Below, in pieces: positions 10,265-59,013 of a DNA stretch of 59,013 nt. The position numbers and the translations under genes are program-made. Every line of letters begins with the position of its first letter. Position 1 is the first letter of the stretch. Origin of the DNA: a virus; the IMG/VR virus record IMGVR_UViG_3300030329_002180, positions 1 to 59,013 of that record. One strand, given 5' to 3'. The notes under the pieces were generated by a model that was not told the origin of the DNA, did not search any database, and saw nothing but the letters and a program-made list of their open reading frames with translations.

Positions 10265-10282
10265 TAACTAATTTATAGTACG

Positions 10283-10300: not shown

Positions 10301-10329
10301 TGTATTATTAATACAAAATAAATAATAAT

Positions 10330-10986: not shown

Positions 10987-10989
10987 AAT

Positions 10990-15900: not shown

Positions 15901-15902
15901 GC

Positions 15903-16265
15903 ATGACAAGACTAAAATTAAATACCGAATCGTATAACTCTTCGTTTGGACAAAACGGAAGTTTTTTAATGAAGCATACAAGTACAGCTGTAACACTAAC
16001 TGGTAGAAATGGAGTTATAACAGCTATAGCTATATTAGAAGATAACACAACATTTGCTTCTAGTAATGGTTTAGTAGCTGAAGACGCTACTAAGTTTATT
16101 AACACAGAATCAAAACCAACGGTTGGTGGTTTAAGTGGTACTGCTTCCTCAACAGCTGTTGGTGAAGTTTTAGATTCTTATGAGTTTCCTAAAGGGTGTA
16201 TTTTGTATGGTAGATGGACTCAAATAGATTTATCCGCTGGTTCTTGTATTTGTTACGTTGATTAA
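15903..16265 (+). CDS. 120-aa small structural protein, paralogue 2
   Basis: A paralogue of the previous gene, sharing the Y-G-R-W-x-x-x-x-L-S-x-G-S-x-x-x-Y-V C-terminus and a preceding beta-rich A-I-A-I-L-E-D-N-T segment. Only 2 bp separates the two. The pair may form a hetero-oligomer or decorate the particle. No enzymatic signature is present. Confidence 0.6.
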   Translation: MTRLKLNTESYNSSFGQNGSFLMKHTSTAVTLTGRNGVITAIAILEDNTTFASSNGLVAEDATKFINTESKPTVGGLSGTASSTAVGEVLDSYEFPKGCILYGRWTQIDLSAGSCICYVD

Positions 16266-16267
16266 TT

Positions 16268-17305: not shown

Positions 17306-17510
17306 AAAAATAACTATAGGTAAAGACTATAAAAACGACGCCATGCATTACGCGGTAGATCAAGAAGTTTACGGCGGGCATACTATATGTAATATAATAG
17401 AAGAGAAAGATAAATATTCTGTTTATATTAAAAAAGAAGGTAACGTTATGCCCTGGAAAGATTTTAACAAAAACATGGCTATATCTGTAGAATATAATTT
17501 AGAGTATTAA
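17289..17510 (+). CDS. 73-aa conserved hypothetical protein
   Basis: Small protein: I-R-K-I-T-I-G-K-D-Y-K-N-D-A-M-H-Y, then Y-G-G-H-T-I-C-N-I-I-E-E-K-D-K-Y-S-V-Y-I, ending V-E-Y-N-L-E-Y. The strand-rich pattern and the phrase I-T-I-G-x-D-Y-K-x-x-A-M are familiar from marine phage genomes without a known function. It overlaps both neighbours (17 bp upstream, 1 bp downstream), so it is tightly co-translated with the GroES-like gene that follows. Confidence 0.6.
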   Translation: MTKLIRKITIGKDYKNDAMHYAVDQEVYGGHTICNIIEEKDKYSVYIKKEGNVMPWKDFNKNMAISVEYNLEY

Positions 17511-18112
17511 TGGATAGTGTTTATAATTATATAATTAAACCAAAAAATTCCAGATATAACAATACTAAAAAAGTTGGTAAAAAAGATTTAATATTAAACA
17601 CAGAAATATCAAATCATCAATTTATAAGTAGAGAGGCTGTTGTTAAAAGTATACCAAAAGCGTTAGAAACAGATATAAAACCTGGAGATGAAGTTATTGT
17701 TCATCATAATGTTTTTAGAAGATGGCATGACATGCGTGGTGAAGAAAAAAATAGTAGAAGTTATTTTAATGAAGAAACTTATTTAGTAACAGACGAACAA
17801 ATCTTTCTTTATAAAAATAACAACAAATGGAAATCACCTAGTGGATACTGTTTTGTAAAACCAATAAAAGCAGTTGATTCTTTTAACGTTGATTCAGAAA
17901 GACCATTAATAGGCATTGTTAAGTATTCAGATGGCACTGTAGAGGAGGGTGATTTAATAGGTTTTAAACCTAGTTCTGAATTTGAATTTGTTATTGACGG
18001 GGAACGTTTATATAGGGTTTTATCACATTTTATTACAATTAAATATGAATATCAAGGAGACGAAGAAGAATATAATCCAAGCTGGACACAAAGCAGTAGA
18101 GGAATTAATTAA
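17510..18112 (+). CDS. 200-aa probable tandem GroES-like protein
   Basis: Two halves each read like a GroES beta-barrel. In the first (about 1-115), I-I-K-P near 8-11 is followed by A-V-V-K-S-I-P and K-P-G-D-E-V-I-V-H-H-N (about 56-66), then a strand ending Q-I-F-L-Y-K. In the second (about 118-190), F-V-K-P-I is followed by G-I-V-K-Y, V-E-E-G-D-L-I-G-F and a strand I-D-G-E-R-L-Y-R-V. These mirror the GroES order of core strand, V-x-x-V-G, V-G-D-x-V-x-F and the terminal strand. Duplicate GroES domains are known in other lineages. Whether it works with the phage GroEL is inference. Confidence 0.5.
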   Translation: MDSVYNYIIKPKNSRYNNTKKVGKKDLILNTEISNHQFISREAVVKSIPKALETDIKPGDEVIVHHNVFRRWHDMRGEEKNSRSYFNEETYLVTDEQIFLYKNNNKWKSPSGYCFVKPIKAVDSFNVDSERPLIGIVKYSDGTVEEGDLIGFKPSSEFEFVIDGERLYRVLSHFITIKYEYQGDEEEYNPSWTQSSRGIN

Positions 18113-43817: not shown

Positions 43818-46800
43818 ATGAGAAGATTTAAATTATTTGGAAGAATATATAATATTCCTGAGGAAGGTGTTAAGCAATTTTTAGAAACATATCCTGATGC
43901 CGAGGAGTATTTTGGTGAATCTAGTGAAAAAGTTACTGAGGATGTAACTAAATTATCGGATGATGATGCTGTTGTTAGATTAAACTCACAATATGGTGAT
44001 CTTGGTTTTTCTTTTGAAACGGCTGGTCTTCTTTCAAATAAAGTAAAGGTTACAAATTTCGATGGTACAATAAGTGAAACTTTTGACTTTAATAATTGGA
44101 CAGACGCTGGTAGATCAAAAGTTGCGTCTGATTTAAATGATTGGATGAGTGCGAATGCTGCTCCTAATACAGATCCTAACTTTGCTCCTATATCTGGAGA
44201 ACAATTACATAAACAATCTACTTTGAACGGTGCTTTTAATATTGAAGAGAGCGCCGTTGTACATTTAAACAATTTATATAGAGATAAAGGTGTTTGGTTT
44301 GAGGAAATATCTCCAGGTAGTGACGAAGTAAGAGTTCATAAAGGTGGCAAACATTTAGATGTAAAACTACCTAATAATATATCTAATATAAACCAAGAGA
44401 ATGCTAGAGATTGGGATATTGTTGCTAGTAAGATAAGTAACTTTGCAACAGGTGTTAGTATTACACCTGTTTATGAGGGACAAATGGGTAAGTTTTCAGA
44501 ATTAATAGAGAGAAAACTAGATGAACCAGGCTTTTTAGAAAGCTTAGGTATAACAGATTGGGAATATGCTGTTAAAAGAGAAGTTAATCAAAACATAAGC
44601 AAAGAAGAAGCTAAGTACAATGTTATATTAAAAGCTTTAAAGTCGAAAGCTGGTACAGAGGGTATTTTTGGTTTTGGTTGGAATCCTAATGATGATTATA
44701 GCCAATTAAAAGAAAAAGAAATTGATAGATCTATTGAACAAGCTGTAAACAATAGATATTACGCTGCTAGAAATGCTAGATTAGTCGCCGAGTCTAATCA
44801 ATTAGCTAATTTTTTAGCAGAAAATATAGAAGAAGATGTTGATGGTAGAAAGTTTCAAGCAGCAACCATTGATGATATTCACGAGCTTTACAAACAAAAA
44901 TCAATAAAAGAGTTTTCAAAAGAAGGAAAAAAACTATTTAATCTAGTAGAAGAATGGAAAAAATTAAACCAACAACGTTTAAATGGTGTTGATGTTAAAA
45001 GAAGTGATATTCAAAAATTAGAATCACAAATAAGAACAGCTAGAAATAACTATACCAATTGGTATACAACAGCTAGTAGTTTTGTTGATAGAGATGGAAA
45101 TCCAATATCACCAGTTCAAGGTGAAAAACTAGTTGGTGGATACATGTTAACTGAAGAGGATAGAGACAACTCTAGACAAGATGTTAGTAAAAGATTACAG
45201 TTTAGCAATATAGATGAGTTGAGAGATGATATGTATGTTGATAAGTTTATTAGTGATAAAATGTATAACAAGATGGAAAAAATTGTTATAAATAATCACG
45301 AGGGTAGAAAGCTTTTAGAAAAAGCGGGTTACAGATCTTCTGGTACAACTGATTTAGGTTATATATACGAAGTTCCATTTGGATTTTTAGCAGAAAACTA
45401 TAAAGAAATAATAAAAGGAGATACAGCTTTACCAATGGAGGGTAAAAAGTTTAAATCAGATCCTGGTTATTTTGGTCTTTTTGAATTTGACAAACAACAG
45501 TCTAAACAAGGCGCTAAAGGAGATTATGGTGATATAGAAGAGTATACGGAGGGTAAAGATTTTTCACAAAGATTTAAACAATCATTAAAAACATACAAAT
45601 CAGAACGTAAAAAACTAATATCTGATTTAAACACTGTTAATGAGATGAGCTTGTTAAATATAGATCCCGCTAGTAAAATATCAGGAAAAGGCGCGGTTGT
45701 AGAAAATGTTGGTGATTTCTTTATGCACATGGGTGGTATTTTAGTAGAAAGTACTGGGAGAATATTTGATAGAGATTTTGAAATAGATGATAGAAGTAAA
45801 AGCGTTCAAGCTGAACTAGAAAAATTAAAGAATATACCTGATTACGAAATGACAGAAGCACAATTAGAAGCTTCTAAAAAAAATATGGCTTATGAGGTTG
45901 CGGAGGGAGTAACTGGTTTTGTACCTGCTATAGCGGAGTTTGCGGCTATAGAGTTTGCTACAGCTGGACTTGGTAGTCAATTCGCTTTAAGTAAGTTGGG
46001 TATGAGATTGTTAAAAACTGAAAAATCAATAAAAGCTTTTGAAAAAGCTTATGATGTAAAGCGTGGTACAAAAGAGTTTGATAAAGCTGTTAAAACTTTA
46101 GGATTAAGATCTTTAGATTCTACTAAATTAGGAAAAGTATTAATACCAACAGCTAAAGTTTTAAACGAAGAACTTAAAATGGGTATTGTAATGGGACCAG
46201 AAGATTACCATGTAGGTTCTGGTGCTGCTTTTTATGGAGTTGGACAGTTAATGCAAAGATTATTACCGAAAGCTGCTGGTAGTAGGTGGGAAGCTGTTAG
46301 AACGTTTATTAGAAACGGTAGTAGTGGTGCGATGGGTGTTAAAGCAGGAGAAGAATTACATGCTCTTATTGAAGACATGCGCGGTAATGAGTCTTATATG
46401 AAACATATAGAAGACGCGTATGGTGATATGAGTCAAGTCGGTAGAGATGCTTTAGTAGAATTTTTAGTGTTTTCTTTAGTTGGTTTTAAAGGAACTATAG
46501 ATAGTCACGGTGGTAAGTGGTTAGGATTTAGAAGCAACAGACAATTAGACACCTTGTTAACAGAATCACTAGTTAAGTCAAGAGAACTAAACACTGATAG
46601 ATTAAACATATTAAAAGGTAGAAAATTTGAAGATTTAAATCCCGGTGAGAAAAAGAAAGTAACAGATTTAGAATCAAGAATAGATAATTGGATTCAGGTT
46701 CAGAATGGTGTTATGAGAAGAATTAATATTATAAATAGAAATATTGATTTTAAAAGTAGTCCAGAGAAAGCAACAAAACAAATGAACGAAAGGTTCAATA

Positions 46801-49800
46801 CTATAATTGAAGAGATGTCTAAAATGAGAACATCTAATAAAGATGGTGAACCTATTAAATTTAAAGTTGTTAGATATAGAAAAGATGGTGATTTTAAAGA
46901 TAAAGATTCCGCAGCGGAGTTTGATGGTAAAAATACAATATGGGTAGACGCACAGAGAGCTGAATGGGGTAAAATACCACACGAGGTTAACCATGTATTT
47001 ATAAAGCAATGGTTTGGTACTGAAAAAGGAAAACTTGTAGCTGAAAAATTTAAATTAGAATTGATAGAGAATTTGAAACCTATAAAATTTAGAGGTTTTG
47101 CTAAGAAAAACGGCGAGTATATTGATAAAGATGGTAAAGTTATAGATAAAAGAACTGATTTCGAGGGAACACCCGCGCAAATAAAAGCTCAAAAAGAAGC
47201 TGCTAGAGTTTATAAAGAGTTTTCTATAGAAGATTATATATTGAATGAATATAGTAATCGTAAAGATTTTCATGATATAAAAGCTAATGAGTTTATAAGT
47301 TATACTATGGAGGCTTTAGCAGACCCAATGAATAGAGATAAGGTTCTTGGTGGTGGTATAATGACACGTATGCACCAATCATATAATCGTTTATTAGAAC
47401 GTGGTGGTGGAGGTAAAGCTAAACTTGGTGAAAATTTAAAAGGCTTAGATTTAGTTAGATTTATGTCAAATCTATCTATGGATTTAGCAGGTGGTAAAGT
47501 TACATCGAGACAATTAGAAAAGTTCAAAGAGCTACTAAGTGACCCCGTTTTAGATAATCATATTAACAAGGTTGATAAGATTGCTAAAATGAGAGAAACT
47601 GTAACTAAGAATCAGGAACCATTAAGCTCTAAAGTTAATGAGTTTAAACGACAAGAATTAATAGAAAGAAAAAATAAGCTAGAAACTACAAAGCCTAAAG
47701 ATTGGAAAGAAAGAGTAGAGAAAACTGTAAAAGAGATTTCAGAATTAAGGAAAACAGATCAATTACAAGAAGTAACAGAATCTAATAAAAAAGTATCGCT
47801 TAAAAACGACGCTTTATTAAAAGAATATAATAAAGTAAAATTAGATAAAAAAGAAACAAAAAAACTTAGTTTGGAATTAGCTAAACTAGAGGATAAAGCA
47901 AGAAGTATAGGTGAGGCTAGAAAAGAGGGTTATATAGAAGAAATTAGAAAATTAACACCACGTATAAACGAGATTAAAGAAGGTTTAAAAAAGTCAAACA
48001 AAATAAAGGAGGATATTCTACAAAACAATAAAGGTATTGTTAATAGATGGTTGTTTGGAGACCCAAAAACAAAAACACCAGGTGTTATTGATCCAGCTAA
48101 AAGTTCTCAAGCAGAATTAAAAGAAATAAAATCATCAGCAGATATTGAGGTTATGAATATAATTGATTCGTATAAACCTTCAGAAGGAGCTTTTGGTAAA
48201 TATTTAATTGGAGCTTTAAGGGGTAAAACCGGTAACCAACGTTTAGGTAATATATTGAAAAGAGCTGGTATTGATTTAGATGTCAAAATGAAAACAGTTA
48301 GTAGAGATGCTCCAGAATATAAAGAAAAAGAGGGTGAAGGTTATGACTTTGAAGCTCAAAAAGAAAAAAGAAAGAAAGAAGAAAAAGAGTTAAAAGAAGA
48401 AATAGCTGGAAAAAGAATTTTAAAAGAAGATTTTAAACTTAATGAAGAGCAGATAAGTAGAGTTGAAAGTAGACTTGAAGGTAGAGATTGGTATAAGGAA
48501 GATTTAATAACCGTAGATAACGTTGCTAAAGATATTATATCTGAAGTAATGGGTAATACTATTACTGAAAAAATAAATTGGATTACAAAAGGTGATAATT
48601 GGAAAGTAGCGTTAGATGCTGTTAGTAAACAATCGTTTTCTATAGCCAGATTAGATTTACCACATAGAGTTGGATCTAAAGGATCTGCACAAATGTCTAC
48701 AAAGTTAAAAGGAACCGTGGTTAGAGATATTATGGAACCTACAGGCGAAACCGTAAGTTTAAAAATAGAAGGTTCAACACAAAATTTACCTATACAAAGA
48801 AAAAAGACATTTACTAGAGAAAGTTTCCTTAGAGACGTACTACATGTAACTTTTGATGCTAAAGGAAAACTTGTTAGCGTTAATGCTGATTCTGCTTTAG
48901 GTAAAAAACGTAAAAAAGCATTTAACAATCTTCAATATGAAATGGGTAGAGGTTTTTCTATTCAATTAAGTAAAGATGTTATTAAAAGAGGAGAAGCTAG
49001 TGGAGATATTGTTATTAAAACAACTTTACAAGATTTAATAAATAAGGTGCAAGACGGAAAATCTCCAAATTTAGCGTCTAAATATAACGAACTAATTAAA
49101 GAAGCTCAAGAAAGAAAACCTAGTTTGTTTAGAGTTAAAAGTATATTAGGCGAAGATAGTAAAGAATATAAAAAATTAGAAAAAGATATTTTACTACAAA
49201 TATCTGATAATAAAAAGCTAGCTACAAGTATATATGAGGCTTATGATTTAACACCAGCTAAACTAGAAAAGATAGTTGTAGAGCAATATAAACGTTTTAG
49301 AAATAAGGAATTAAGAGAAGAATTAAGAAAAGCGGGGTTTGAATTAAACAAAGATGTAGCGGGTGGTAAAGATGGTTATATTAATAAACCAGAAACATTC
49401 GTTAAATTAGCTAATTATTTAAATAAAAACCTTAAATTACCTAGTACATTTTTTTATTCAATGTTGCTAGATAGTTATGGTGTTAAAAAATGGCAACCAT
49501 ATAATTCATGGGCTGGTAGAAAAATACTTAAAGAACAAGATATTTCTTGGGAAACAATAAACGAAATACATGGACAATTTTTAGGTTTATCAGGTTTTGG
49601 AACTAAAACAACAGGTGATAAAGCTGGAATTATATTGTCTAACGCTTTGAAAGATAAAATTAGAAGAACTAATAATAAAGACTTAACACCAATAGAAAAA
49701 GCTGAAGAAATAGTTAATTGGATGGAAGGTTATCTTAACGATTATGGAACCTCTATAGTTGATGCATATAAAAATAACAAGAAAGTAAGAAAAGATTTAG

Positions 49801-52800
49801 CTGGGTCTTTACATGATTACGTTTATAAAGGTGGTGATAAAAAGTTGATAAACGAAAGGTTTAATGATGTAGCTAATTTTTTAGCACAACAAACATATAT
49901 ACCTTACGGAATATGGAGAGCTACAAATCCAGTTACATCATTTACAACAATGAAAGGTAAAGTGTCCGACCAACATATCGTTCAAGTTTTAAATCAATCT
50001 GTAAACACTGTTAAAAATATTGCTAAATATAAAAGCAAAGATAAATTTATAAAAGATTTCGTATTAACTGATAAGTATTCTAATAGATCTTTTACTACTG
50101 AAAAAAATCAAAAATTAAGCGATAAATCTGGTAGAACAACTTACGAAGGCCCAATGGCTAAAGGTGTAAAACAAGAATTCCAATTAATAGTTGACCCAAA
50201 ACAATTATCTGAAAACTTTATTATTGATGTTAAAGGTAAAAAAGTAGAAATAAAAACTTGGGGTGATAGTTTGATAGAGCAATTATCTGGCAAATCTTTA
50301 GATAAACTAGGACACTTGAGTAGTAAGGATTTAAATCATTACATAAAAGAGGTTCAAGCTATTTTAGAAGGTCAAAAAACTAAAAAGAAAAAAAGAGGTA
50401 TTACTGTTTGGGATTTTGATGATACTATAGCTAGAACAAAATCAAACGTGTTATTTACAGATCCTAAAGGCAAAAAAGGTAAACTTAATGCTGAGGAGTT
50501 TGCTAAGCATGGAAAAACGTTATTAGATCAAGGTTTTAAATTTGATTTTTCTGAATTTAATAAAGTTATTGATGGTAAGAAAGGTCCGTTTTTTGACAAA
50601 GCACTAAAAAGAAATGAAAAATTTGGTAATAAAGATGTTTTTATATTAACAGCTAGACCTGGTGTTTCTGCAAATGCTATACACGAGTTTTTGAAAGGTA
50701 TTGGTTTAGAAATACCTTTAGAAAATATTAAAGGTTTAGGTAATAGCACCGCTGAAGCTAAAGCTAAATGGATGGTTGGTAAAGTTGCGGAAGGTTACAA
50801 TGATTTTTATTTTGCTGACGATGCTATAAAAAATACTAACGCGGTTAAAAATGTACTTAATCAATTCGATGTTAAATCCAAAGTTCAACTTGCTCAACAA
50901 AGCTTATCATCAAAAAGAAGTGAGAAATTTAACAAAATACTAGAAGATGTTTCTGGAATGGAAGCTAAAAAACGTTTTTCAGATGTTAAAGCTAAAATAA
51001 GAGGCTCTGCGAAAGATAAGTTTGAATTTTTTATACCATCATCTGCTGAGGACTTTGTAGGATTAATGTATAAGTTTATGGGTAAAGGTGTTAAAGGAGA
51101 AAAACATCAAGCTTGGTTTAAAAGAAATTTATTAGATCCATTTGAAAAAGGTATTTTTGATTTAAATAATGCTAAACAAAAAATAGCTACAGAATATGAT
51201 GTTTTAAAATCTCAAAATAAAGAAGCTATAAATAAATTAAAAGAAAGAGTAAAGGATAATAAGGATTTTACTTACGAACAAGCTTTACGTGTTCATTTAT
51301 TTGAGAAGGCTGGTTACGACACGCCTGGTCTATCTAAAACAGACAAAGGTAAATTGTTAGAAGCAGTAAACTCTAATCCTGATTTACTAGCATTGTCACA
51401 CACACTAAGTAAAATATCAAGAAAGAAAGAGGGTTATATAGAGCCGAAAAAAGATTGGTTAACAGGTGATATACAAACTGATTTAATGTCATTGACATCT
51501 AGAACGGCAAGAGCTAAGTATTTGAATAAATGGATAGAAAATAAAAATGAAATATTTTCACCAGAAAATTTAAACAAAATTGAAGCTATTCACGGTACTA
51601 AATATAGAGAAGCTTTAGAAGATATTTTATATAGAATGGAAACGGGTGTTAATAGAAATATTGGTAAAGATAGATTTAATTATAGGTTTTCAGAAGCAAT
51701 GTCTAATTCTGTTGGTGCTATAATGTTTGCTAACATTAGATCAGCAACTTTACAGATGTTATCTACAGTGAACTTTGTTAATTGGGGTCATAATAATATA
51801 TTTAATGTTGCTAAAACTTTTGCTAATCCAAAACAATATTGGAAAGATGTAACTATGATATTTAATTCTAATTGGGCTAAACAGAGAAGATCAGGTTTAA
51901 AAACAGATGTTAACCACGTTGAGTTGGCGGAAGCTGCTTCTTCTGGTTCAAATAAGTTTAGATCCGGTATGAAATGGTTGTTACAAAAAGGTTTTATGCC
52001 AACTCAAATAGCTGATAGTTTTGCAATAGCAACAGGTGGTGCTTCATATTATAGAAATACTGTTAAAAAATATATGAAAGAAGGTTTGACAAAGAAAAAT
52101 GCGGAGAAGAAAGCTTGGTTAGAATTCCAACACATAGCAGAAAGAACACAGCAGTCTGCTAGACCAGATTTAATATCACAACAACAAGCTTCTCCACTTG
52201 GGAGATTTATATTAGCTTTTGCTAACACACCAATGCAGTATAACAGGATTATAAAGAAGTCTTTTACAGATCTTAAAAATGGAAGAGGAGATGCTAAAGC
52301 TCATATATCTAAAATTATATATTATGGAGCTATGCAAAACTTTATATTCTCATCATTACAAGCAGGGTTGTTCACATTATTGTTTGATGATACTGATGAG
52401 AATGCTATAAAACAAAAAGAAGTTAGAATTGCTAATTCTATGTTAGACACTGTTTTAAGAGGATCTGGTTTTGCTGGAGCTGGTGTATCATCTTTAAAAA
52501 ACATGTTACTAGAATTCCACAAGCAAGAAGGCAAAGGATATAACGCAGATCACATGAGAACTGTTTTACAAGGATTAAATTTCTCACCACCTCTAGGGTC
52601 TAGAGTTAGAAAAGTGTATTCTGGATTAACAAATTATAAATACAACAAACAGCTTATAGAAGCAAGAGGATTTAATATTGATAATCCAGCTTTAAATATA
52701 ACCGGTAATGTTGTTGAGGGATTGACAAACGTACCTTTAGCTAGATTAGTTAACAAGACTAATAATGTTGTTGAAGGTTTAAGCGGTGAGCATGAAACGT

Positions 52801-53069
52801 GGCAATCGATAGCGCTTTTAATGGGTTGGAATAGATGGGATTTAGGAGTGGAAAACGAAGAAATGAAAAAATTAAGAGAACAAATAAAGATACAAAATAG
52901 ATTAAGAGGAAAAGGTAAAGCCTCTGTAACTAGAATGATTAACAAAGCAAAAAAAGAAACTAGAGTTGGTTATAGACCATATTTATATAACAACCAAATA
53001 CGTTGGGTTAGGTTAAAAGATAAAGATATTTTTGAAAGAAATTACCCAGAAGCAGAGCTTATAAAGTAA
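43818..53069 (+). CDS. 3083-aa giant polyvalent virion protein with metalloprotease- and HAD-like motifs
   Basis: At 9.25 kb this is the largest gene. The N-terminal R-F-K-L-F-G-R-I-Y-N-I-P-E-E-G-V-K-Q-F-L opens a domain typical of large internal proteins of marine podophages. A hydrophobic stretch lies near 700-730. Residues about 1053-1065 read I-P-H-E-V-N-H-V-F-I-K-Q-W, an H-E-x-x-H zinc metalloprotease site. Near 2195-2340 a HAD-like unit has D-F-D-D-T (motif I), I-L-T-A-R-P (motif II) and Y-F-A-D-D-A (motif IV). The C-terminus (about 2790-2860) has Q-Q-Q-A-S-P-L-G-R-F-I-L-A-F-A-N-T-P-M-Q-Y-N-R. It is probably injected and acts in the host; enzyme activity is inferred. Confidence 0.7.
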   Translation: MRRFKLFGRIYNIPEEGVKQFLETYPDAEEYFGESSEKVTEDVTKLSDDDAVVRLNSQYGDLGFSFETAGLLSNKVKVTNFDGTISETFDFNNWTDAGRSKVASDLNDWMSANAAPNTDPNFAPISGEQLHKQSTLNGAFNIEESAVVHLNNLYRDKGVWFEEISPGSDEVRVHKGGKHLDVKLPNNISNINQENARDWDIVASKISNFATGVSITPVYEGQMGKFSELIERKLDEPGFLESLGITDWEYAVKREVNQNISKEEAKYNVILKALKSKAGTEGIFGFGWNPNDDYSQLKEKEIDRSIEQAVNNRYYAARNARLVAESNQLANFLAENIEEDVDGRKFQAATIDDIHELYKQKSIKEFSKEGKKLFNLVEEWKKLNQQRLNGVDVKRSDIQKLESQIRTARNNYTNWYTTASSFVDRDGNPISPVQGEKLVGGYMLTEEDRDNSRQDVSKRLQFSNIDELRDDMYVDKFISDKMYNKMEKIVINNHEGRKLLEKAGYRSSGTTDLGYIYEVPFGFLAENYKEIIKGDTALPMEGKKFKSDPGYFGLFEFDKQQSKQGAKGDYGDIEEYTEGKDFSQRFKQSLKTYKSERKKLISDLNTVNEMSLLNIDPASKISGKGAVVENVGDFFMHMGGILVESTGRIFDRDFEIDDRSKSVQAELEKLKNIPDYEMTEAQLEASKKNMAYEVAEGVTGFVPAIAEFAAIEFATAGLGSQFALSKLGMRLLKTEKSIKAFEKAYDVKRGTKEFDKAVKTLGLRSLDSTKLGKVLIPTAKVLNEELKMGIVMGPEDYHVGSGAAFYGVGQLMQRLLPKAAGSRWEAVRTFIRNGSSGAMGVKAGEELHALIEDMRGNESYMKHIEDAYGDMSQVGRDALVEFLVFSLVGFKGTIDSHGGKWLGFRSNRQLDTLLTESLVKSRELNTDRLNILKGRKFEDLNPGEKKKVTDLESRIDNWIQVQNGVMRRINIINRNIDFKSSPEKATKQMNERFNTIIEEMSKMRTSNKDGEPIKFKVVRYRKDGDFKDKDSAAEFDGKNTIWVDAQRAEWGKIPHEVNHVFIKQWFGTEKGKLVAEKFKLELIENLKPIKFRGFAKKNGEYIDKDGKVIDKRTDFEGTPAQIKAQKEAARVYKEFSIEDYILNEYSNRKDFHDIKANEFISYTMEALADPMNRDKVLGGGIMTRMHQSYNRLLERGGGGKAKLGENLKGLDLVRFMSNLSMDLAGGKVTSRQLEKFKELLSDPVLDNHINKVDKIAKMRETVTKNQEPLSSKVNEFKRQELIERKNKLETTKPKDWKERVEKTVKEISELRKTDQLQEVTESNKKVSLKNDALLKEYNKVKLDKKETKKLSLELAKLEDKARSIGEARKEGYIEEIRKLTPRINEIKEGLKKSNKIKEDILQNNKGIVNRWLFGDPKTKTPGVIDPAKSSQAELKEIKSSADIEVMNIIDSYKPSEGAFGKYLIGALRGKTGNQRLGNILKRAGIDLDVKMKTVSRDAPEYKEKEGEGYDFEAQKEKRKKEEKELKEEIAGKRILKEDFKLNEEQISRVESRLEGRDWYKEDLITVDNVAKDIISEVMGNTITEKINWITKGDNWKVALDAVSKQSFSIARLDLPHRVGSKGSAQMSTKLKGTVVRDIMEPTGETVSLKIEGSTQNLPIQRKKTFTRESFLRDVLHVTFDAKGKLVSVNADSALGKKRKKAFNNLQYEMGRGFSIQLSKDVIKRGEASGDIVIKTTLQDLINKVQDGKSPNLASKYNELIKEAQERKPSLFRVKSILGEDSKEYKKLEKDILLQISDNKKLATSIYEAYDLTPAKLEKIVVEQYKRFRNKELREELRKAGFELNKDVAGGKDGYINKPETFVKLANYLNKNLKLPSTFFYSMLLDSYGVKKWQPYNSWAGRKILKEQDISWETINEIHGQFLGLSGFGTKTTGDKAGIILSNALKDKIRRTNNKDLTPIEKAEEIVNWMEGYLNDYGTSIVDAYKNNKKVRKDLAGSLHDYVYKGGDKKLINERFNDVANFLAQQTYIPYGIWRATNPVTSFTTMKGKVSDQHIVQVLNQSVNTVKNIAKYKSKDKFIKDFVLTDKYSNRSFTTEKNQKLSDKSGRTTYEGPMAKGVKQEFQLIVDPKQLSENFIIDVKGKKVEIKTWGDSLIEQLSGKSLDKLGHLSSKDLNHYIKEVQAILEGQKTKKKKRGITVWDFDDTIARTKSNVLFTDPKGKKGKLNAEEFAKHGKTLLDQGFKFDFSEFNKVIDGKKGPFFDKALKRNEKFGNKDVFILTARPGVSANAIHEFLKGIGLEIPLENIKGLGNSTAEAKAKWMVGKVAEGYNDFYFADDAIKNTNAVKNVLNQFDVKSKVQLAQQSLSSKRSEKFNKILEDVSGMEAKKRFSDVKAKIRGSAKDKFEFFIPSSAEDFVGLMYKFMGKGVKGEKHQAWFKRNLLDPFEKGIFDLNNAKQKIATEYDVLKSQNKEAINKLKERVKDNKDFTYEQALRVHLFEKAGYDTPGLSKTDKGKLLEAVNSNPDLLALSHTLSKISRKKEGYIEPKKDWLTGDIQTDLMSLTSRTARAKYLNKWIENKNEIFSPENLNKIEAIHGTKYREALEDILYRMETGVNRNIGKDRFNYRFSEAMSNSVGAIMFANIRSATLQMLSTVNFVNWGHNNIFNVAKTFANPKQYWKDVTMIFNSNWAKQRRSGLKTDVNHVELAEAASSGSNKFRSGMKWLLQKGFMPTQIADSFAIATGGASYYRNTVKKYMKEGLTKKNAEKKAWLEFQHIAERTQQSARPDLISQQQASPLGRFILAFANTPMQYNRIIKKSFTDLKNGRGDAKAHISKIIYYGAMQNFIFSSLQAGLFTLLFDDTDENAIKQKEVRIANSMLDTVLRGSGFAGAGVSSLKNMLLEFHKQEGKGYNADHMRTVLQGLNFSPPLGSRVRKVYSGLTNYKYNKQLIEARGFNIDNPALNITGNVVEGLTNVPLARLVNKTNNVVEGLSGEHETWQSIALLMGWNRWDLGVENEEMKKLREQIKIQNRLRGKGKASVTRMINKAKKETRVGYRPYLYNNQIRWVRLKDKDIFERNYPEAELIK

Positions 53070-53092: not shown

Positions 53093-53371
53093 ATGGCAAA
53101 AGAATTAAATGAAGATACTGGTTTTCATATCAGTATAAAAACCTTAATAGCTATAGGTTTTGGAATGGCAACAATAATTAGTATGTGGTTTATGCTTCAA
53201 GCAGATATAGCTGAAGCAAAAGCATTACCAGAACCACCTGAGGCAGAAGTTACTAGAATGGAATTTGATATGAAAGATCAAATGATTCGTCAAACTATTA
53301 TGACAACTCAAGAAGATGTTAAGGAAATTAAAAAATCTATTGAAAAAATAGAAGATCATCTTTATAAATAA
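53093..53371 (+). CDS. 92-aa membrane-anchored coiled-coil protein (holin- or spanin-like)
   Basis: A short cytoplasmic N-terminus precedes one membrane span (about 15-35, K-T-L-I-A-I-G-F-G-M-A-T-I-I-S-M-W-F-M-L). A coiled coil follows (about 58-92, F-D-M-K-D-Q-M-I-R-Q-T-I through I-E-K-I-E-D-H-L). This is the layout of an inner-membrane spanin or a small holin accessory. It opens the right-end envelope cassette, 7 bp before the thioredoxin-like gene. No family is certain. Confidence 0.6.
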   Translation: MAKELNEDTGFHISIKTLIAIGFGMATIISMWFMLQADIAEAKALPEPPEAEVTRMEFDMKDQMIRQTIMTTQEDVKEIKKSIEKIEDHLYK

Positions 53372-53377
53372 AATTAA

Positions 53378-53728
53378 ATGAAAAATATTGATCCTAAAAT
53401 AGCATATCTATTTGTAATTGTGTTTTGGTTAATAGTTACAACAGCTTTTGGCCAAATAGAAGTAAAACAATTTAACGCTAGTTGGAATAGCGCTAATGAT
53501 GTTGGTTGGGTTCAAAGTCTTGAAGATTGTAAAACTATAAGTTATACTGATGTCGCTAAAGACAAAGAATCTCAAAAAGAATATAAAATAGCAGTAGTAC
53601 CTACTATTATTATATTTAAAGATGGAGAAGAAGTTGCTAGATTTCAAGCTGATTTAAGTTTTAAAATGCAAGCAACAAGAGAAGAAGTACAGGAAGAAAT
53701 AAATAACCAATTAATGAGTGATTTCTAA
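53378..53728 (+). CDS. 116-aa membrane-targeted thioredoxin-fold protein lacking CxxC
   Basis: A hydrophobic N-terminus (about 9-25, A-Y-L-F-V-I-V-F-W-L-I-V-T-T-A-F-G) looks like a signal peptide or anchor. The rest reads as a thioredoxin fold: V-K-Q-F-N-A-S-W-N-S-A-N-D, helix, then I-A-V-V-P-T-I-I-I-F-K-D-G (cis-Pro75) and E-V-A-R-F-Q-A. The redox C-x-x-C that should follow W36 is replaced by N-S-A-N. It therefore cannot act as a normal thioredoxin; a binding or structural role in the periplasm is more likely. Its stop overlaps the SNase gene start by one base. Confidence 0.65.
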   Translation: MKNIDPKIAYLFVIVFWLIVTTAFGQIEVKQFNASWNSANDVGWVQSLEDCKTISYTDVAKDKESQKEYKIAVVPTIIIFKDGEEVARFQADLSFKMQATREEVQEEINNQLMSDF

Positions 53729-54096
53729 TGTATACTTATAAAATAAAATTAGATAGAGTTATTGATGGTGATACCATTGATGCTCATATTGATTTAGGAT
53801 TTGATGTGTCTATTAAAAAAAGAATTAGATTTGTTGGTATTAATACTCCAGAATCTAGAACTAGAGATTTAGAAGAAAAAGCAAGAGGTTTAGCAGCTAA
53901 AGATAGATTAAAGAATTTATTAGAAGGTGCTAATATGATACAATTAAAATCTCACGGCGTTGGAAAATATGGAAGATGTTTAGGTGAGTTACACATAGAC
54001 GTTGTTGACGGTCAAGATAAAATGACCTTAGAAAATGTAAATGAATTATTAATAAAAGAGGGCCATGCCGTAGAATATCATGGAGGTAAAAGATAA
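53728..54096 (+). CDS. thermonuclease (SNase)-like nuclease
   Basis: Staphylococcal-nuclease fold motifs are in order: V-I-D-G-D-T (D13, D15), R-F-V-G-I-N-T-P-E (R34, E42) and K-Y-G-R (R83). R34, E42 and R83 match the catalytic Arg35, Glu43 and Arg87, and D15 matches the calcium ligand Asp21. The second ligand Asp40 is Asn39 here, so metal binding may be altered. The enzyme would degrade DNA or RNA. No signal peptide is visible, so it probably acts in the cytoplasm. It is translationally coupled to the preceding gene (TAATG). Confidence 0.8.
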   Translation: MYTYKIKLDRVIDGDTIDAHIDLGFDVSIKKRIRFVGINTPESRTRDLEEKARGLAAKDRLKNLLEGANMIQLKSHGVGKYGRCLGELHIDVVDGQDKMTLENVNELLIKEGHAVEYHGGKR

Positions 54097-54100
54097 AAAT

Positions 54101-54184
54101 ATGAAAGAAACTATATGTAAACTTATATGTAAAATTACTGTTGGTAATATTTGTTTAGGATGGTGTGATAAAAAATGTTGTTAA
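54101..54184 (+). CDS. 27-aa cysteine-rich peptide
   Basis: ATG 54101 reads 27 codons (MKETICKLICKITVGNICLG, then W-C-D-K-K-C-C) to TAA. Six of 27 residues are cysteine, too many for chance in this AT-rich DNA, and the next gene starts 3 bp later. It may bind metal or form disulfides. It lies between the SNase and lipoprotein genes. No family is recognised. Confidence 0.45.
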   Translation: MKETICKLICKITVGNICLGWCDKKCC

Positions 54185-54186
54185 TA

Positions 54187-54297
54187 ATGAAACAATTATT
54201 AATTATATTATTATTATTATGTTTATCAAGTTGCTTGACAACAAAACAAACTTGTGAAAAAGAAACTAAAAAATGTTGTACAAAAAAAATAAAATGA
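54187..54297 (+). CDS. 36-aa lipoprotein (o-spanin-like candidate)
   Basis: A lipoprotein signal peptide (MKQLLIILLLLCLSSC) has an L-S-S-C lipobox with Cys16 as the lipidation site. The mature part is only 21 residues, polar and Lys/Cys-rich (LTTKQTCEKETKKCCTKK). Tiny lipoproteins near lysis genes often act as outer-membrane spanins. The stop shares its ATGA with the start of the next gene. Superinfection exclusion is the alternative role. Confidence 0.65.
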   Translation: MKQLLIILLLLCLSSCLTTKQTCEKETKKCCTKKIK

Positions 54298-56486
54298 AAA
54301 AAATAATACTATTACTATTACTACCTATAATAACTTTTGCGCAAAAAGAAGTTGTTATACATATACAAACTGATTCTTGGCCAGGAGAAACTAAATGGAC
54401 TTTGTATAAAGACGCTTATCAAGGCGATACTATAGCTTACGTTCCTTATTATCATTATAGTGCGCCAAATACAATGCACAGAGACACTGTTTATATGGCT
54501 GATAGTATTACTAATATATCATTTGTTATATATGATGGATATGGTGATGGTATTGTGAATGGTAGTTATTACGTTACTATATGTGGTGATACTGTGGTAG
54601 ATTATCCTGTATCTACATTTACAACAGGGTTAATACACAATAGAATGGTTCCTCAATGCATGCCTAATCCTCCTCCAGGTGTACCTGTTAAAATTGTTAT
54701 TAATTTAGATCAATATCAAGGCGAAACATCTTGGGATATAAAAGATACAAACGGTGTAACCTATGCTACGGGTGGTGGATATAATGTTCAACCTGATTAT
54801 GCTACAGTAATAACAAACGCTACTATCCCTAAGGGAGATTTGATATTTAATATATATGATAGCTACGGAGATGGTTTAAACGGAGCTTTATGGCAGGGAC
54901 AAGATGGTTCTTATTACGTTATTCAATGTAACGATACTTTAATATATGGTACTGATCCAGCTTTTGGATATGACACTTCACATGTATTTGTATCTGATTC
55001 TTGTCCTCCTATACTTGGTTGTACAGATGATGATTATGTAGAGTGGAATCCTTTTGCAACAGTAGATGATGGAAGTTGTCAAACACTAAAAATATTTGGT
55101 TGCTTAGATTCTACAATGTATAATTACGATCCAGGTGCCAATACAATGGAATTAATTGACACATGTACTTTTAAATTAATACTACATGATTTGATGGGTA
55201 ATGGTTGGGTTGGTTCTCATTTAAAACTAATACATCCAGATACATCATATCAATTTACACATTCAGGCGGGTTTGATGATATATATTACGTAGGATTAAC
55301 AGCTCCAGATCCAATAACATTTAGATTTCATATATCATCACAAGCTAGTTTAACCACTATAGAATGTGGATTTACTTTAATTAATCCAGAAGGTGATACT
55401 ATGATAAGTATTCAACCTCCGTTTATACAACCGTTGTTTTCTTATAATATGATTACTAATTGTGGTAATACTTGTGAAGAAAAAGTATTTGGGTGTATGG
55501 ATATATTAGCAATTAATTACGATAGTTTAGCAAACACAGATGACAGCACTTGTTATTATGGTCCTGGTTGTACTAACTCTTCTTATTTAGAATATTACAC
55601 ACAAGGTTATGTAGCTGACTATGACGACGGTAGTTGTATAACGCTAGCCGTATGGGGATGTATGGATTCTACAGCGTTTAATTATGATACATTAGCTAAT
55701 ATAGATAATGGTGGATGTGTCCCTGTTATATTAGGTTGTATGAATGAATTAGCTTTTAATTACAATCCTAATGCAAACACACCGGATACTTGCGTACCTT
55801 TAATATATGGATGTACGGATCCTACAATGTATAATTTCTGTGATACTTGTAACACGGATGACGGTAGTTGTGAGCCTTATGTTTTTGGATGTACTGATTC
55901 TACTATGTTTAACTTTAATCCATTAGCAAATGCAGATAACAACTCTTGTATTCCTTATATTTACGGTTGCACTGATCCTAGTATGCTTAATTACAACCCA
56001 CAAGCCAATACAGAAGATTTTAGTTGTATTGCTTATATTTATGGTTGTATGGATAGTACTGCTCTTAACTATGATTCAACAGCTAATACTGATAACGGTT
56101 CGTGTATCACTGTGGTTGAAGGATGTATGGACCCATCAGCTTACAACTATTCTGAGCTTGCTAATGTTAATGATAGCAGTTCTTGCTTATATAATGCTGG
56201 TTGTATCACTGGCCCAGGTGTTCCGTATTGGTTAAACGATCCTTGCTACGCTTGGGTATTATCAGTAGATGATTACTGTTGTGAAAATGAGTGGGATACA
56301 ATATGTCAAGCAACTTATAATCATTGTTTTAATGGGTGGGTCGGGCCATTATTAACAAGACAAATGGAAAGGAAAATAATAGCAATAACAGATTTACTAG
56401 GAAGACCAACAAAAGAAATAAAAAATCAACTTTTATTTTACATATATAATGATGGTACTGTTGAAAGAAAATTAATAAAAGATTAA
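54294..56486 (+). CDS. 730-aa secreted protein with Cys-repeat array and T9SS-like C-terminus
   Basis: From ATG 54294 (ATGA overlap with the lipoprotein gene) a signal peptide M-K-K-I-I-L-L-L-L-L-P-I-I-T-F-A precedes three beta domains. Two of these carry a D-x-Y-G-D-G-x-x-N/V-G calcium-site-like motif. From about residue 240 come 11 units beginning G-C-(M/T/L)-(D/N), each closed by a Cys about 20 residues later, with an A-x-N-Y-(D/N) core. The last 35 residues (I-A-I-T-D-L-L-G-R-P-T-K, then L-L-F-Y-I-Y-N-D-G-T-V-E-R-K-L) match T9SS type A sorting domains. It would be displayed on or released from the infected cell. A phage gene with this architecture suggests capture from the host. A start at 54273 is also in frame but lacks support. 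Confidence 0.8.
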   Translation: MKKIILLLLLPIITFAQKEVVIHIQTDSWPGETKWTLYKDAYQGDTIAYVPYYHYSAPNTMHRDTVYMADSITNISFVIYDGYGDGIVNGSYYVTICGDTVVDYPVSTFTTGLIHNRMVPQCMPNPPPGVPVKIVINLDQYQGETSWDIKDTNGVTYATGGGYNVQPDYATVITNATIPKGDLIFNIYDSYGDGLNGALWQGQDGSYYVIQCNDTLIYGTDPAFGYDTSHVFVSDSCPPILGCTDDDYVEWNPFATVDDGSCQTLKIFGCLDSTMYNYDPGANTMELIDTCTFKLILHDLMGNGWVGSHLKLIHPDTSYQFTHSGGFDDIYYVGLTAPDPITFRFHISSQASLTTIECGFTLINPEGDTMISIQPPFIQPLFSYNMITNCGNTCEEKVFGCMDILAINYDSLANTDDSTCYYGPGCTNSSYLEYYTQGYVADYDDGSCITLAVWGCMDSTAFNYDTLANIDNGGCVPVILGCMNELAFNYNPNANTPDTCVPLIYGCTDPTMYNFCDTCNTDDGSCEPYVFGCTDSTMFNFNPLANADNNSCIPYIYGCTDPSMLNYNPQANTEDFSCIAYIYGCMDSTALNYDSTANTDNGSCITVVEGCMDPSAYNYSELANVNDSSSCLYNAGCITGPGVPYWLNDPCYAWVLSVDDYCCENEWDTICQATYNHCFNGWVGPLLTRQMERKIIAITDLLGRPTKEIKNQLLFYIYNDGTVERKLIKD

Positions 56487-56487
56487 C

Positions 56488-57333
56488 ATGAAATGGTTAG
56501 GTCAACATATTGTAGATTTTATAGCTAGGTTTCGTAGTGACGTATATTTAGAAGGTGCAACTGAAGAAACACAAGATCATGTTGTTAGTATTAACGCTGA
56601 TGATGGTAAATTATACTACCAACCTGCGGCTACAGGAGATATAACAGGTGTAACAATAACAACAGATAGTGGTGGTGGAAGTAAAGCAACAGATACAGCT
56701 GGTAGTGCTGATTTTAGTATATTAGGATCTAGTGGGGTTGGCGTAACAAATTCTGGTACTACTATAACAGCGGTAGCTGTTCCCGGTGAGATTGACCATG
56801 ATTCGTTAAATAATTTTGATGCTAACGAGCATTTTACTCAAGCTAATATAACAACAGTTGGTACAGTATCTTCTGGAACATGGCAAGGTACGCCTATAGC
56901 TGCAGCTTATATTGCAGATAATAAAGGTACAAAACATTTTGGTGATACTATAAAAATATTACCAACTGATTTTATGTCTAACGAGGATGGAGGGGCGAAT
57001 AAATCCGCACAATTTAGAGATGATACTATAATAGGAGTTAGATCAACACATAACGATGCTGAGCTTTATGCTTTTGTAGCTATACCAGAAGGAAAAACAG
57101 CCACATCCGTAACAGTATATGGAAACGATACGGGTTTAGCAGTTAACGTTTATGAATCTGATATTAACGCTGGTGCTTTAACTGACAAAACTCCCGGTGG
57201 TGGTTGTACGGTTGGATCAGCTTGTGATATAACCGATGTAGCATCAGATGCTACTAATTATTTAGCTATAAAAGTAACAACAACAAACTACACTAACGAT
57301 ATAGTATATGGTGGTATAGTAACGATATCTTAA
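56488..57333 (+). CDS. 281-aa tail-fibre-like protein
   Basis: The N-terminus (MKWLGQHIVDFIARFRSDVYLE) is an amphipathic helix plus strand that I associate with fibre proteins in marine phages. A G-D-I-T-G-V-T-I-T-T-D unit and S-S-G-T-W-Q-G-T-P-I-A repeat signature follow (about 125-135), typical of fibre triple beta-helices. The C-terminal domain is beta-rich with K-I-L-P-T-D-F. Receptor binding is a plausible role. Confidence 0.65.
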   Translation: MKWLGQHIVDFIARFRSDVYLEGATEETQDHVVSINADDGKLYYQPAATGDITGVTITTDSGGGSKATDTAGSADFSILGSSGVGVTNSGTTITAVAVPGEIDHDSLNNFDANEHFTQANITTVGTVSSGTWQGTPIAAAYIADNKGTKHFGDTIKILPTDFMSNEDGGANKSAQFRDDTIIGVRSTHNDAELYAFVAIPEGKTATSVTVYGNDTGLAVNVYESDINAGALTDKTPGGGCTVGSACDITDVASDATNYLAIKVTTTNYTNDIVYGGIVTIS

Positions 57334-57339
57334 TATAAA

Positions 57340-57882
57340 ATGGCAAGAACAACTACACAAAAAATAACAGCTAATACTAAAACAGAAATAACAACTGGTT
57401 ATCATCATTATGATTCATTAAGTTTAACAAATGTTAAAAGTAGTGGTACTGTAACTATAAGTTTATGGATAACTTCTCAAGTTGGTAGTAGTATCACAGA
57501 TACAGGGACAAACTCAAATGAAAGTGATAATGCTGCTACTACTAGCTCGGTAACATTAACTGTTGATGGAACAGCAGCAACCGCAGATGTTTTTGAAAAT
57601 GAAAAAGTATGGAAATCTGACGGTACATTATTTGGTACATGTACGGCTAGAAATAGTAATACAGAGATTGTGTTTGGAGGAGGTTTAGAACAAATATTAG
57701 CTAACAATGATGATTTATATGTTGGTACTAGATATTATATATTAAGTAATGTTATTATACCAAATGGATCGACTTTGGTTTTAGATAATAGTGATTTTGA
57801 ATTTGATTCAAGATTATATAATTTATATATAATATCAGATAGTTCTGATGGTGATATAGATGTAATAATAAGAAAGTTTTAA
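57340..57882 (+). CDS. 180-aa beta-rich fibre-associated protein
   Basis: Strand-rich sequence (T-A-N-T-K-T-E-I-T-T-G-Y-H-H-Y-D, V-T-I-S-L-W-I-T-S-Q, Y-Y-I-L-S-N-V-I-I-P-N-G-S-T-L-V-L-D) ending in I-D-V-I-I-R-K-F. The phrase N-V-I-I-P-x-G-x-T-L-V-L-x-x and its place after a fibre gene suggest a particle component. No named family is recognised. Confidence 0.6.
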   Translation: MARTTTQKITANTKTEITTGYHHYDSLSLTNVKSSGTVTISLWITSQVGSSITDTGTNSNESDNAATTSSVTLTVDGTAATADVFENEKVWKSDGTLFGTCTARNSNTEIVFGGGLEQILANNDDLYVGTRYYILSNVIIPNGSTLVLDNSDFEFDSRLYNLYIISDSSDGDIDVIIRKF

Positions 57883-57892
57883 AAAAAACAAT

Positions 57893-58972
57893 ATGAAAAA
57901 ATTAATATTAATTATACTTTTATTTCCTTTACTATTAAAATCTCAAATAGATGTTCAAGATGTAATAAAGAAGAATTTAAAGTTTTCTACATTTTACGCC
58001 GCTGTTAATGGTGGGACATCATTATCTGATGTTAATATTTTTTCTGTTGATAATGGTTTGTCTACACAAACTATTTCAACTCCTTATGATTACAATTTTA
58101 CCATAGGTTTACGTAAGATAGCGAGATTTGGATATGAAAATAAAGCACAAACGTTTTACGATGGAACGGAGTCTAATTACAGTGATGCGGCTACTGTGGG
58201 TAAAGTTAGAGGAGTTGAATACTTATTTGAGGTAGATTATAAAAGACAAGAAGGTGTAGATTATGTAGACCAACACCATTTTATTAGATTTAGTTCTGAT
58301 GATGATTGTGACGACCCATTGTGTGTTAACTTTTTTGCTTTAAAATTAGAGTATTTACAAGATGGTTTTGCTGATATAGAATATTTTGAAGCATCAGAAA
58401 GATTTAGGTATAAATATACTAGAGACTTATCCTTTAACATCGGAGCTGTACATCGACTAGCAGAGCCTTATGGATATAATCCCTTAAGCGAATGGATGCT
58501 ATCAAATGGTAATTTACATTATACTTATTTAGCAATTCAAGAAGGGTACAATATCGATGTCGCTAATAGTGAATACTTTGCACCAGATGGAACTTTAGTT
58601 GCGACTAGTCCTGAGGTTTGGGAAGCAGTTGTAATTCCAGAGGTGTTGTCAGATTACGTTGCTAAAAAAAGAAACGAATTAGAAAATGTCATACAACATT
58701 CTATCGTTATAGGATTTGATTATTATAAATATACTAAGAAAAACTGGTTACATATTTGGGGTAACATATTACCTTGGCATTATAATGATGGAAGTGAATT
58801 CTCATACCATAACTTTATAAAAGATGATCAATGGTATGATTATTCTGGAGGATTAATATACGGAATAAAACAAAATAAAAATTTAGGATATTTCATAGAA
58901 GGAAAATATAATAAGTACTGGAATAGAGAATGGTATGATTTTAAAATAGGATTAAATTACACAATATTTTAA
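57893..58972 (+). CDS. 359-aa exported, outer-membrane barrel-like protein
   Basis: A signal peptide (MKKLILIILLFPLLLKSQ, cleaved near residue 18) precedes alternating amphipathic strands (Y-L-F-E-V-D-Y-K, F-F-A-L-K-L-E-Y, H-S-I-V-I-G-F-D-Y-Y). The last strand is F-K-I-G-L-N-Y-T-I-F. The C-terminal Phe is the outer-membrane barrel assembly signal. It would insert in the host outer membrane, where blocking of the receptor or help in lysis are possible. I recall proteins ending K-Y-N-K-Y-W-N-R-E-W-Y-D-F-x-x-G-L-N-Y from marine Bacteroidota phages, without known function. Confidence 0.7.
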   Translation: MKKLILIILLFPLLLKSQIDVQDVIKKNLKFSTFYAAVNGGTSLSDVNIFSVDNGLSTQTISTPYDYNFTIGLRKIARFGYENKAQTFYDGTESNYSDAATVGKVRGVEYLFEVDYKRQEGVDYVDQHHFIRFSSDDDCDDPLCVNFFALKLEYLQDGFADIEYFEASERFRYKYTRDLSFNIGAVHRLAEPYGYNPLSEWMLSNGNLHYTYLAIQEGYNIDVANSEYFAPDGTLVATSPEVWEAVVIPEVLSDYVAKKRNELENVIQHSIVIGFDYYKYTKKNWLHIWGNILPWHYNDGSEFSYHNFIKDDQWYDYSGGLIYGIKQNKNLGYFIEGKYNKYWNREWYDFKIGLNYTIF

Positions 58973-58974
58973 TT

Positions 58975-59013
58975 ATGATAAGTAAACATATAAGCTATAA
59001 AGAAGGCGTGTAT
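58975..59013 (+). CDS. N-terminal fragment of probable M15 peptidase endolysin
   Basis: ATG 58975 opens 13 codons (MISKHISYKEGVY) before the window ends. The pattern S-K-H-I-S-Y-K-E is the opening of peptidase M15 (D,D- or L,D-endopeptidase) endolysins, which cut peptidoglycan cross-links. Only the first helix is visible, so catalytic residues cannot be checked. The place directly after the outer-membrane protein gene fits a late lysis region. Confidence 0.55.
   Translation, partial: MISKHISYKEGVY

Follow-up and report, generated by a model that had tools for sequence, protein, structure and literature searches.

A conserved gene set for an outer-membrane barrel, a coiled-coil protein and a thioredoxin fold at the late-operon end of uncultured Bacteroidota phages, with a possible role in envelope exit

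Introduction

The closest described counterparts of the locus reported here are phage spanins, phage-encoded cargo of the type IX secretion system (T9SS) and phage-encoded outer-membrane proteins. Two-component spanins are known with a combined periplasmic length as short as 62 amino acids (aa) (PMC6139136), and unimolecular spanins are the only spanin type listed for Bacteroidetes phages in a 2025 survey (PMC12596118). Phage-encoded T9SS cargo has been described as a unique case in Cryophage (PMC7468147), and T9SS-domain genes have been found near crAss-BACON genes (PMC6949934). Here we describe a gene cassette at the right end (positions 53,093 to 59,013) of IMG/VR virus record IMGVR_UViG_3300030329_002180, a linear sequence of 59,013 bases (31.9% GC) that is not part of any larger contig and that was analysed over its whole length (hereafter the window). 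The cassette contains a predicted outer-membrane barrel (OMP), a small membrane coiled-coil protein (TMCC) and an exported thioredoxin-fold protein (TRX), three genes that we found together in many uncultured phages.

Our preferred explanation, held tentatively as a possibility that falls short of probable, is that the cassette joins a conserved and portable envelope-exit core (OMP, TMCC, TRX and an M15 peptidase) to variable cargo, fibres and a T9SS-type surface protein, the core providing a spanin-like exit through both membranes. The data show gene content, synteny, export signals, conservation and linkage to endolysin and holin genes, together with predicted barrel and thioredoxin folds; every functional step proposed below for TMCC, OMP and TRX is inferred.

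Results and Discussion

Conservation of a three-gene core across viral contigs

The genes that carry the argument lie in the window as follows:
53093-53371, + strand: TMCC, 92 aa, with a transmembrane (TM) segment at about residues 11-35 followed by a coiled-coil-like region
53378-53728, + strand: TRX, 116 aa, with a signal or anchor sequence and a thioredoxin fold (PF00085, E = 1.8e-4)
54187-54297, + strand: LIPO, a 36-aa lipoprotein with an LSSC lipobox and a CC motif
54294-56486, + strand: T9SS-like exported repeat protein with GCTD...DDGSC repeats and a short T9SS-like C-terminus
57893-58972, + strand: OMP, predicted outer-membrane barrel with a signal peptide and a terminal Phe
58975-59013, + strand: start of a putative M15_3 peptidase gene (endolysin), first 13 codons, cut by the contig end
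15162-15548, + strand: holin of the GTA_holin_3TM type (phrog_3427, 2.3e-29), 38 kb upstream

Three IMG/VR scans returned 129 (OMP), 146 (TRX) and 557 (TMCC) relatives; only the best 80 loci per scan were retained, so the frequencies given here describe close relatives. The OMP-TMCC-TRX core is carried by ~155 distinct viral contigs, an approximate figure (contigs were grouped by identical gene DNA) that includes many fragments. TMCC and TRX adjoin in 132 of the 134 contigs having both, OMP and TMCC in 102/127, and OMP adjoins the large virion-type gene GIANT in 89/110; the T9SS gene lies no more than 5 kb from TRX, on its downstream side, in 90/97. These counts speak against a chance grouping. 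The usual order in relatives is GIANT-OMP-TMCC-TRX-cargo-T9SS-small beta proteins-fibres-M15, followed by convergent genes that include a probable ribonucleotide reductase (named from its sequence). The window holds a variant of this order, with OMP relocated downstream to a place after the fibre genes. Two other contigs (L250, L181) likewise have OMP further downstream, and in a third (L262) it lies behind the T9SS gene. The core is also found in very different phages, on contigs of 65 kb (L239), 91 kb (L240) and 231 kb (L225). One further contig (L067) has two OMP copies (10001-11101 and 15735-16811), the second of which adjoins a nuclease gene.

The initial annotation, made from the letters of the window, had suggested that all genes of the cassette could be a single lysis or superinfection-exclusion module. 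Scattering in relatives was looked for in the gene-neighbourhood survey, and the genes were strikingly syntenic instead. As a single module, the proposal was too wide: the nuclease, the Cys-rich peptide, LIPO and the fibres vary between relatives, and it is OMP, TMCC, TRX, the T9SS gene and M15 that persist.

Median omega (Nei-Gojobori method on pairs in the dS range 0.1-1.2, with partial saturation of synonymous sites) was 0.11 for OMP, 0.12 for TMCC, 0.26 for TRX and 0.31 for the T9SS gene, and OMP and TMCC are thus under strong purifying selection. Searching 50,697 deposited phage records by tblastn gave no match to OMP, TMCC or TRX. A host origin of OMP was considered and rejected, as a scan of bacterial genomes returned only six contigs of metagenome-assembled genomes, most of which carry other cassette genes and are therefore likely phage. 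An apparent co-divergence of OMP and TRX (Pearson 0.62 in 90 contigs) fell to 0.11 without the divergent genomes and is therefore not used as evidence.

Predicted properties of OMP and its lipid anchor

An AlphaFold2 model of OMP (68 diverse rows), which supersedes an earlier one built on a shallower alignment (pTM 0.65), predicts a barrel of 12 strands and, at about residues 190-265, an insert that contains a helix (pLDDT 75.8, pTM 0.72). Outer-membrane barrels characteristically end in Phe, and OMP combines a C-terminal Phe with a signal peptide and an even number of strands. Foldseek matched it to porin-type and transport barrels generally (NanC 2.7e-6, DcaP, PelBC, FapF) at low identity. 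OMP shares the predicted viral beta-barrel with phage-encoded outer-membrane proteins such as that of Aeromonas phage phiAS5 (BFVD E1A206) and BFVD A0A516LKJ4, but the best viral fold match is only 22% identical, and an association with TMCC or TRX is known for none of them.

Mean column identity of OMP is 80% across unrelated phages, loops included. Mean entropy is 0.53 in the non-strand parts vs 0.42 in the strands, and a very conserved stretch at residues 79-104 falls outside the strands, in a part where the model assigns loops with low confidence. A receptor-masking protein is expected to vary in its loops; because those of OMP are hardly more variable than its strands, a conserved partner is favoured and receptor-type diversification disfavoured.

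About half of the OMP family starts with a lipoprotein signal (...SCxxPKxCCSQ), and the others, including that of the window, with an ordinary signal peptide. LIPO is the only open reading frame (ORF) with a lipobox in all six frames of the entire window, and has homologues or analogues in six other contigs, all with OMPs that lack a lipobox; its homologues and its being the sole lipobox ORF lead us to regard it as a real gene. All standalone small lipoproteins accompany OMPs that lack a lipoprotein signal (7/67 vs 0/67; p = 0.013 once two evident false ORFs were removed), and this complementarity between lipoprotein and OMP lipobox is suggestive only.

Predicted properties of TMCC and TRX

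TMCC is single copy in all 48 genomes that carry it and has a conserved MAKELNEDTGF start, one TM segment, an acidic coiled-coil tail and an invariant RMEFDMKD motif. Its topology, as predicted from hydropathy and alignment, is that of an i-spanin, with an N-terminal TM segment (N-in) and then a periplasmic coiled coil. It is the only bitopic coiled-coil candidate in the window, where we found no other spanin candidate, and PHROG and Pfam searches gave it no significant family. DUF6808 (PF20647) was tried as a shared spanin marker, had no match anywhere and is uninformative. In six divergent phages (L099, L161, L201, L213, L215, L228), proteins of 68-84 aa with an N-terminal coiled coil and a C-terminal TM segment, the mirror image of TMCC, are encoded between OMP and TMCC, directly before TMCC; considered as a holin-associated family, those of them that were tested had no Pfam match.

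TRX has a thioredoxin fold, with PF00085 detected in 29/30 members (best 1.5e-6) and matches to thioredoxins in the PDB down to 3e-7. The cis-Pro is kept, but the redox active site is absent: where WCxxC would be expected, the window protein and the other members inspected have WNxxN, and a single Cys is invariant. TRX is therefore not an ordinary redox thioredoxin.

Linkage to M15 and holin genes and comparison with known lysis systems

The window ends within M15, of which it holds the last 39 bases, 13 codons (MISKHISYKEGVY) that are nearly identical to the M15 N-termini of relatives. A PF08291 scan accordingly found no complete M15 in the window. Relatives whose protein starts MISKHISYKEGVYS... 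carry PF08291 (up to 4e-18), so the endolysin guessed at in the initial annotation appears to have been named correctly, with the enzyme itself beyond the window. PF08291 was detected in 25/35 records scanned; all 25 have M15 on the cassette strand, and in 24 of them the distance downstream from TMCC is 3.8-11.4 kb. The phrog_3427 holin was found in 39/48 genomes, on the TMCC strand in 39/39, and lies less than 9 kb from TMCC in nine divergent genomes. Directly before the holin of the window is a gene (14558-14932) for a 124-aa protein with a HEIKH metallopeptidase-like motif and weak matches to metallopeptidase families.

In the divergent phage L240, the triad sits inside a full lysis cassette, with the order OMP, holin-like protein (phrog_1296, 2.8e-4), TMCC, TRX, exported protein, endolysin (phrog_894, 1e-36) and holin (phrog_3427, 4e-27).

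Two deposited relatives, the uncultured podovirus MW202828 and Flavobacterium phage elemo (Elemovirus), share with the window a homologous terminase and an M15-type peptidase, but lack OMP, TMCC and TRX, and their peptidase gene is near the terminase, upstream of it. Next to M15, MW202828 has genes for a holin recognised by Pfam and for a protein with one TM segment and a C-terminus rich in beta structure. A comparable single-TM protein in elemo ends in outer-membrane-like strands, and no single-TM protein with such a beta-rich C-terminus was found in the window. It looks as if a one-piece bridge had been replaced by a two- or three-piece one.

With lambda Rz/Rz1, the cassette has in common a small inner-membrane protein (TMCC) with an N-terminal TM segment and a periplasmic coiled coil, and, in the window, a small lipoprotein nearby. 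TMCC and LIPO together have a periplasmic length of ~76 aa, above the 62 aa of the shortest two-component spanins, so that a spanin-type span is possible. It differs from Rz/Rz1 in that no spanin family is matched, the lipoprotein is not universal, the partners are a barrel and a thioredoxin fold, and the holin does not adjoin in the window lineage. An o-spanin would be expected as an outer-membrane lipoprotein whose gene accompanies that of the i-spanin in each phage using it; a standalone small lipoprotein occurs in only 7/134 OMP contigs. The cassette would fill the role that unimolecular spanins have in phages of this host phylum (PMC12596118), but the window has no single protein with a lipobox and a C-terminal TM segment, LIPO has no second TM segment, and the function would be split between inner- and outer-membrane proteins. 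As TMCC has no spanin family match and the lipoprotein is not universal, we have not filed TMCC as a spanin.

In the mechanism that we propose, the holin, likely the partner of M15, would open the inner membrane, and the M15 peptidase would cut the cell wall. A spanin-like bridge, with TMCC as its inner-membrane half and OMP as its outer-membrane half, would then rupture or fuse the outer membrane at the end of infection. OMP would be anchored directly by lipid in about half of its family, and LIPO may supply the lipid anchor in the window phage. TRX may assist OMP in the periplasm as an adaptor or chaperone with no redox role, and the T9SS protein would be delivered to the host surface through host type IX secretion, for another purpose.

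The predicted T9SS-type surface protein

The T9SS protein of the window has a Sec signal peptide (MKKIILLLLLPIITFAQ), and a signal peptide is present in 94/98 family members. A type A sorting domain (PF18962, 7.9e-12, or TIGR04183) was detected in 6/26 members and a MAM domain in 7/26. At the C-terminus of the 98 members, 23 have a YPNP-type tail and 72 a short LGR...YIY.DGTV..KLIK tail at the same position; the window protein has the short tail, which matches no family model but which hhalign aligned with the YPNP tails at 75%. The T9SS sequence is far less conserved than the OMP-TMCC-TRX triad, and its gene is directly beside OMP in three divergent phages (L239, L225, L264). We propose that the T9SS protein is a passenger of the operon and not a lysis factor, and that it coats or leaves the cell surface. 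Cryophage and crAss-BACON phages likewise have products with T9SS type A sorting domains, but there the T9SS genes were reported from single phages or clusters, whereas here the gene is a near-constant neighbour of a membrane triad in ~100 contigs.

Variable cargo and genomic context

The other features of the region are:
43818-53069, + strand: GIANT, 3083-aa late virion-type protein directly upstream of the cassette
53728-54096, + strand: staphylococcal-nuclease-like endonuclease (SNase; PF00565, 4.9e-12; phrog_452, 9.9e-38)
54080 or 54101 (alternative starts) to 54184, + strand: Cys-rich peptide of 27-34 aa, with homologues in 17 loci (E down to 1e-9)
56488-57333, + strand: FIB1, fibre-like, with phmmer relatives in 37 loci and a low-complexity, fibre-like composition
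57340-57882, + strand: FIB2, small fibre- or decoration-like protein, with phmmer relatives in 55 loci

ORF calls confirmed all listed cassette genes. They are tightly packed on the + strand, as the initial annotation had it in describing one co-directional run, and with intergenic gaps of -17 to +23 nt the cassette reads as one operon. The four predicted exports also held, since TRX, LIPO, the T9SS protein and OMP carry export signals. Adaptation to the Bacteroidota surface was supported by Sec signals with the typical ...Q cleavage, by T9SS sorting domains in family members, and by terminase relatives that infect Flavobacterium, Cellulophaga, Maribacter and Tenacibaculum. The nuclease occurs in a minority of relatives. 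FIB1 had no family match, and FIB2 matched phrog_10529 (E = 0.007), the function of which is unknown. In four contigs (L247, L248, L250, L251) the TRX-M15 interval holds genes for PAP2-phosphatase-like (PSGHS...SRxxAxAHYxSD) and small basic DUF5872-like proteins, so named by sequence. Directly after TRX, four others (L181, L245, L249, L252) encode a two-TM protein of 71-77 aa (MWKLFxDKNxINEKN...; 11/85 distinct post-TRX genes) that resembles a small holin and has no family match.

The window terminase (18720-20942) is 62% identical to that of MW202828 and 46% to that of elemo, with further relatives in other Flavobacterium, Cellulophaga, Maribacter and Tenacibaculum phages. From ~9.2 kb to the right end only the + strand is used, for GroEL/GroES, holin, terminase, portal, capsid, large virion-type proteins, GIANT and the cassette, and early-type genes occupy the - strand at the left end (sigma-like factor, 133-891). 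Replication genes are absent from the window; in relatives they are convergent and follow the cassette, which indicates that the genome continues beyond the record. We take the cassette region to be the far end of the late operon in a podovirus-like phage of Bacteroidota. No tRNA was found in the 59,013 bases, and counts of internal promoters and terminators equalled those in shuffles. The GroEL/GroES pair and a second GroES-like protein (phrog_13932, 2.6e-16), at 12307-14113 and 17510-18112, are also present in the deposited relatives. A 633-aa protein (40481-42382) has NPYAGM/NPFSGM and QGQWMADEAAAKG repeats, and the next gene, of 469 aa, precedes GIANT.

The C-terminal 900 aa of GIANT are common to the gene that precedes OMP in relatives (E down to 1e-304), and the equivalent position in Elemovirus is annotated as a structural protein. 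Only these 900 aa are well conserved among relatives, the remainder being strongly divergent; residues 2186-2384 form a polynucleotide-kinase/HAD-like stretch (phrog_415, 1e-4). No DNA-level relative of GIANT, or of one divergent stretch of the cassette, was found among cultured phages.

Alternative explanations

We favour lysis because of the linkage to M15 and holin, the L240 cassette, the purifying selection on OMP and TMCC and the lack of another spanin candidate. Several observations weigh against it. TMCC was rejected as a known spanin (best phrog_739, E = 0.16; 4/29 members match, none significantly), and to our knowledge outer-membrane barrels and thioredoxin folds are not lysis parts. 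In the window lineage the holin is 35-47 kb upstream of the cassette, near the terminase, some contigs have no detectable holin or M15, and the set is interrupted by T9SS and fibre genes. The lipoprotein complementarity is post hoc (Fisher p 0.16 before removal of the spurious ORFs), a lipidated OMP and a separate lipoprotein are both missing from about half of the genomes, and the core lineage shows weak distance correlations among OMP, TMCC and TRX. The new lysis module suggested in the initial annotation gains from its M15/holin linkage and the purifying selection on its core, but TMCC and OMP match no known lysis family. A more specific version, in which OMP, TMCC and TRX are a new class of outer-membrane exit machine (a barrel tethered to lipid directly or via a lipoprotein, a redox-dead TRX adaptor and an inner-membrane coiled coil) that takes the place of spanins across a large group of uncultured phages of Bacteroidota, we consider rather unlikely at present.

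The core could instead remodel the surface, with OMP and the displayed T9SS protein covering or replacing phage receptors and TRX and TMCC aiding their placement. The cell surface is where a phage-encoded outer-membrane barrel and T9SS cargo have to act, the T9SS family includes sorting and adhesion-type MAM domains, and superinfection roles were suggested for Cryophage T9SS cargo by Bellas et al. (PMC7468147). Exclusion factors usually diversify, however, whereas OMP is very conserved, loops and omega included, and the cassette closes the late operon, next to M15; we therefore think this unlikely for the cassette as a whole. Lysis is the better core function, and superinfection exclusion fits the T9SS protein better than it fits the core. 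That OMP, TMCC and TRX are a channel or chaperone set that brings the T9SS protein, or some other product of the phage, to the surface agrees with the closeness of the T9SS gene to TRX and, in three divergent phages, to OMP, with a TRX that lacks the redox motif, like binding-only thioredoxin folds, and with the transport barrels FapF and PelBC in the Foldseek list. Those matches are generic to barrels, though, T9SS hosts already have their own secretion machine, and the T9SS protein is far less conserved than the triad, which makes such a helper quite unlikely. We find it improbable that the operon end merely accumulates unrelated genes with no common function: nuclease, Cys-rich peptide, PAP2-like and DUF5872-like genes do come and go in the TRX-T9SS interval, and gene trees are discordant in the core lineage, but the OMP-TMCC-TRX grouping persists across phages of very different kinds, on contigs of 31-231 kb and among different neighbours. 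Most improbable, in our assessment, is a virion or adsorption module with GIANT, OMP, the T9SS protein and the fibres as particle proteins. Its neighbours do suggest it (virion-type GIANT, fibre-like genes, annotated structural proteins in Elemovirus), but the Sec or lipoprotein signals of OMP, TRX, the T9SS protein and LIPO mean that these proteins leave the cytoplasm, where tailed phages assemble.

Implications for Bacteroidota phages

Phage T9SS cargo was already known from Cryophage; for the OMP-TMCC-TRX core we found no described counterpart in the open-licence literature. Surface proteins of the T9SS type, until now reported as a curiosity of phages, are standard among the late genes of this group. 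How Bacteroidota phages break the outer membrane is almost unstudied, and the envelope-exit core that we tentatively propose offers a concrete, conserved three-gene candidate that is testable gene by gene.

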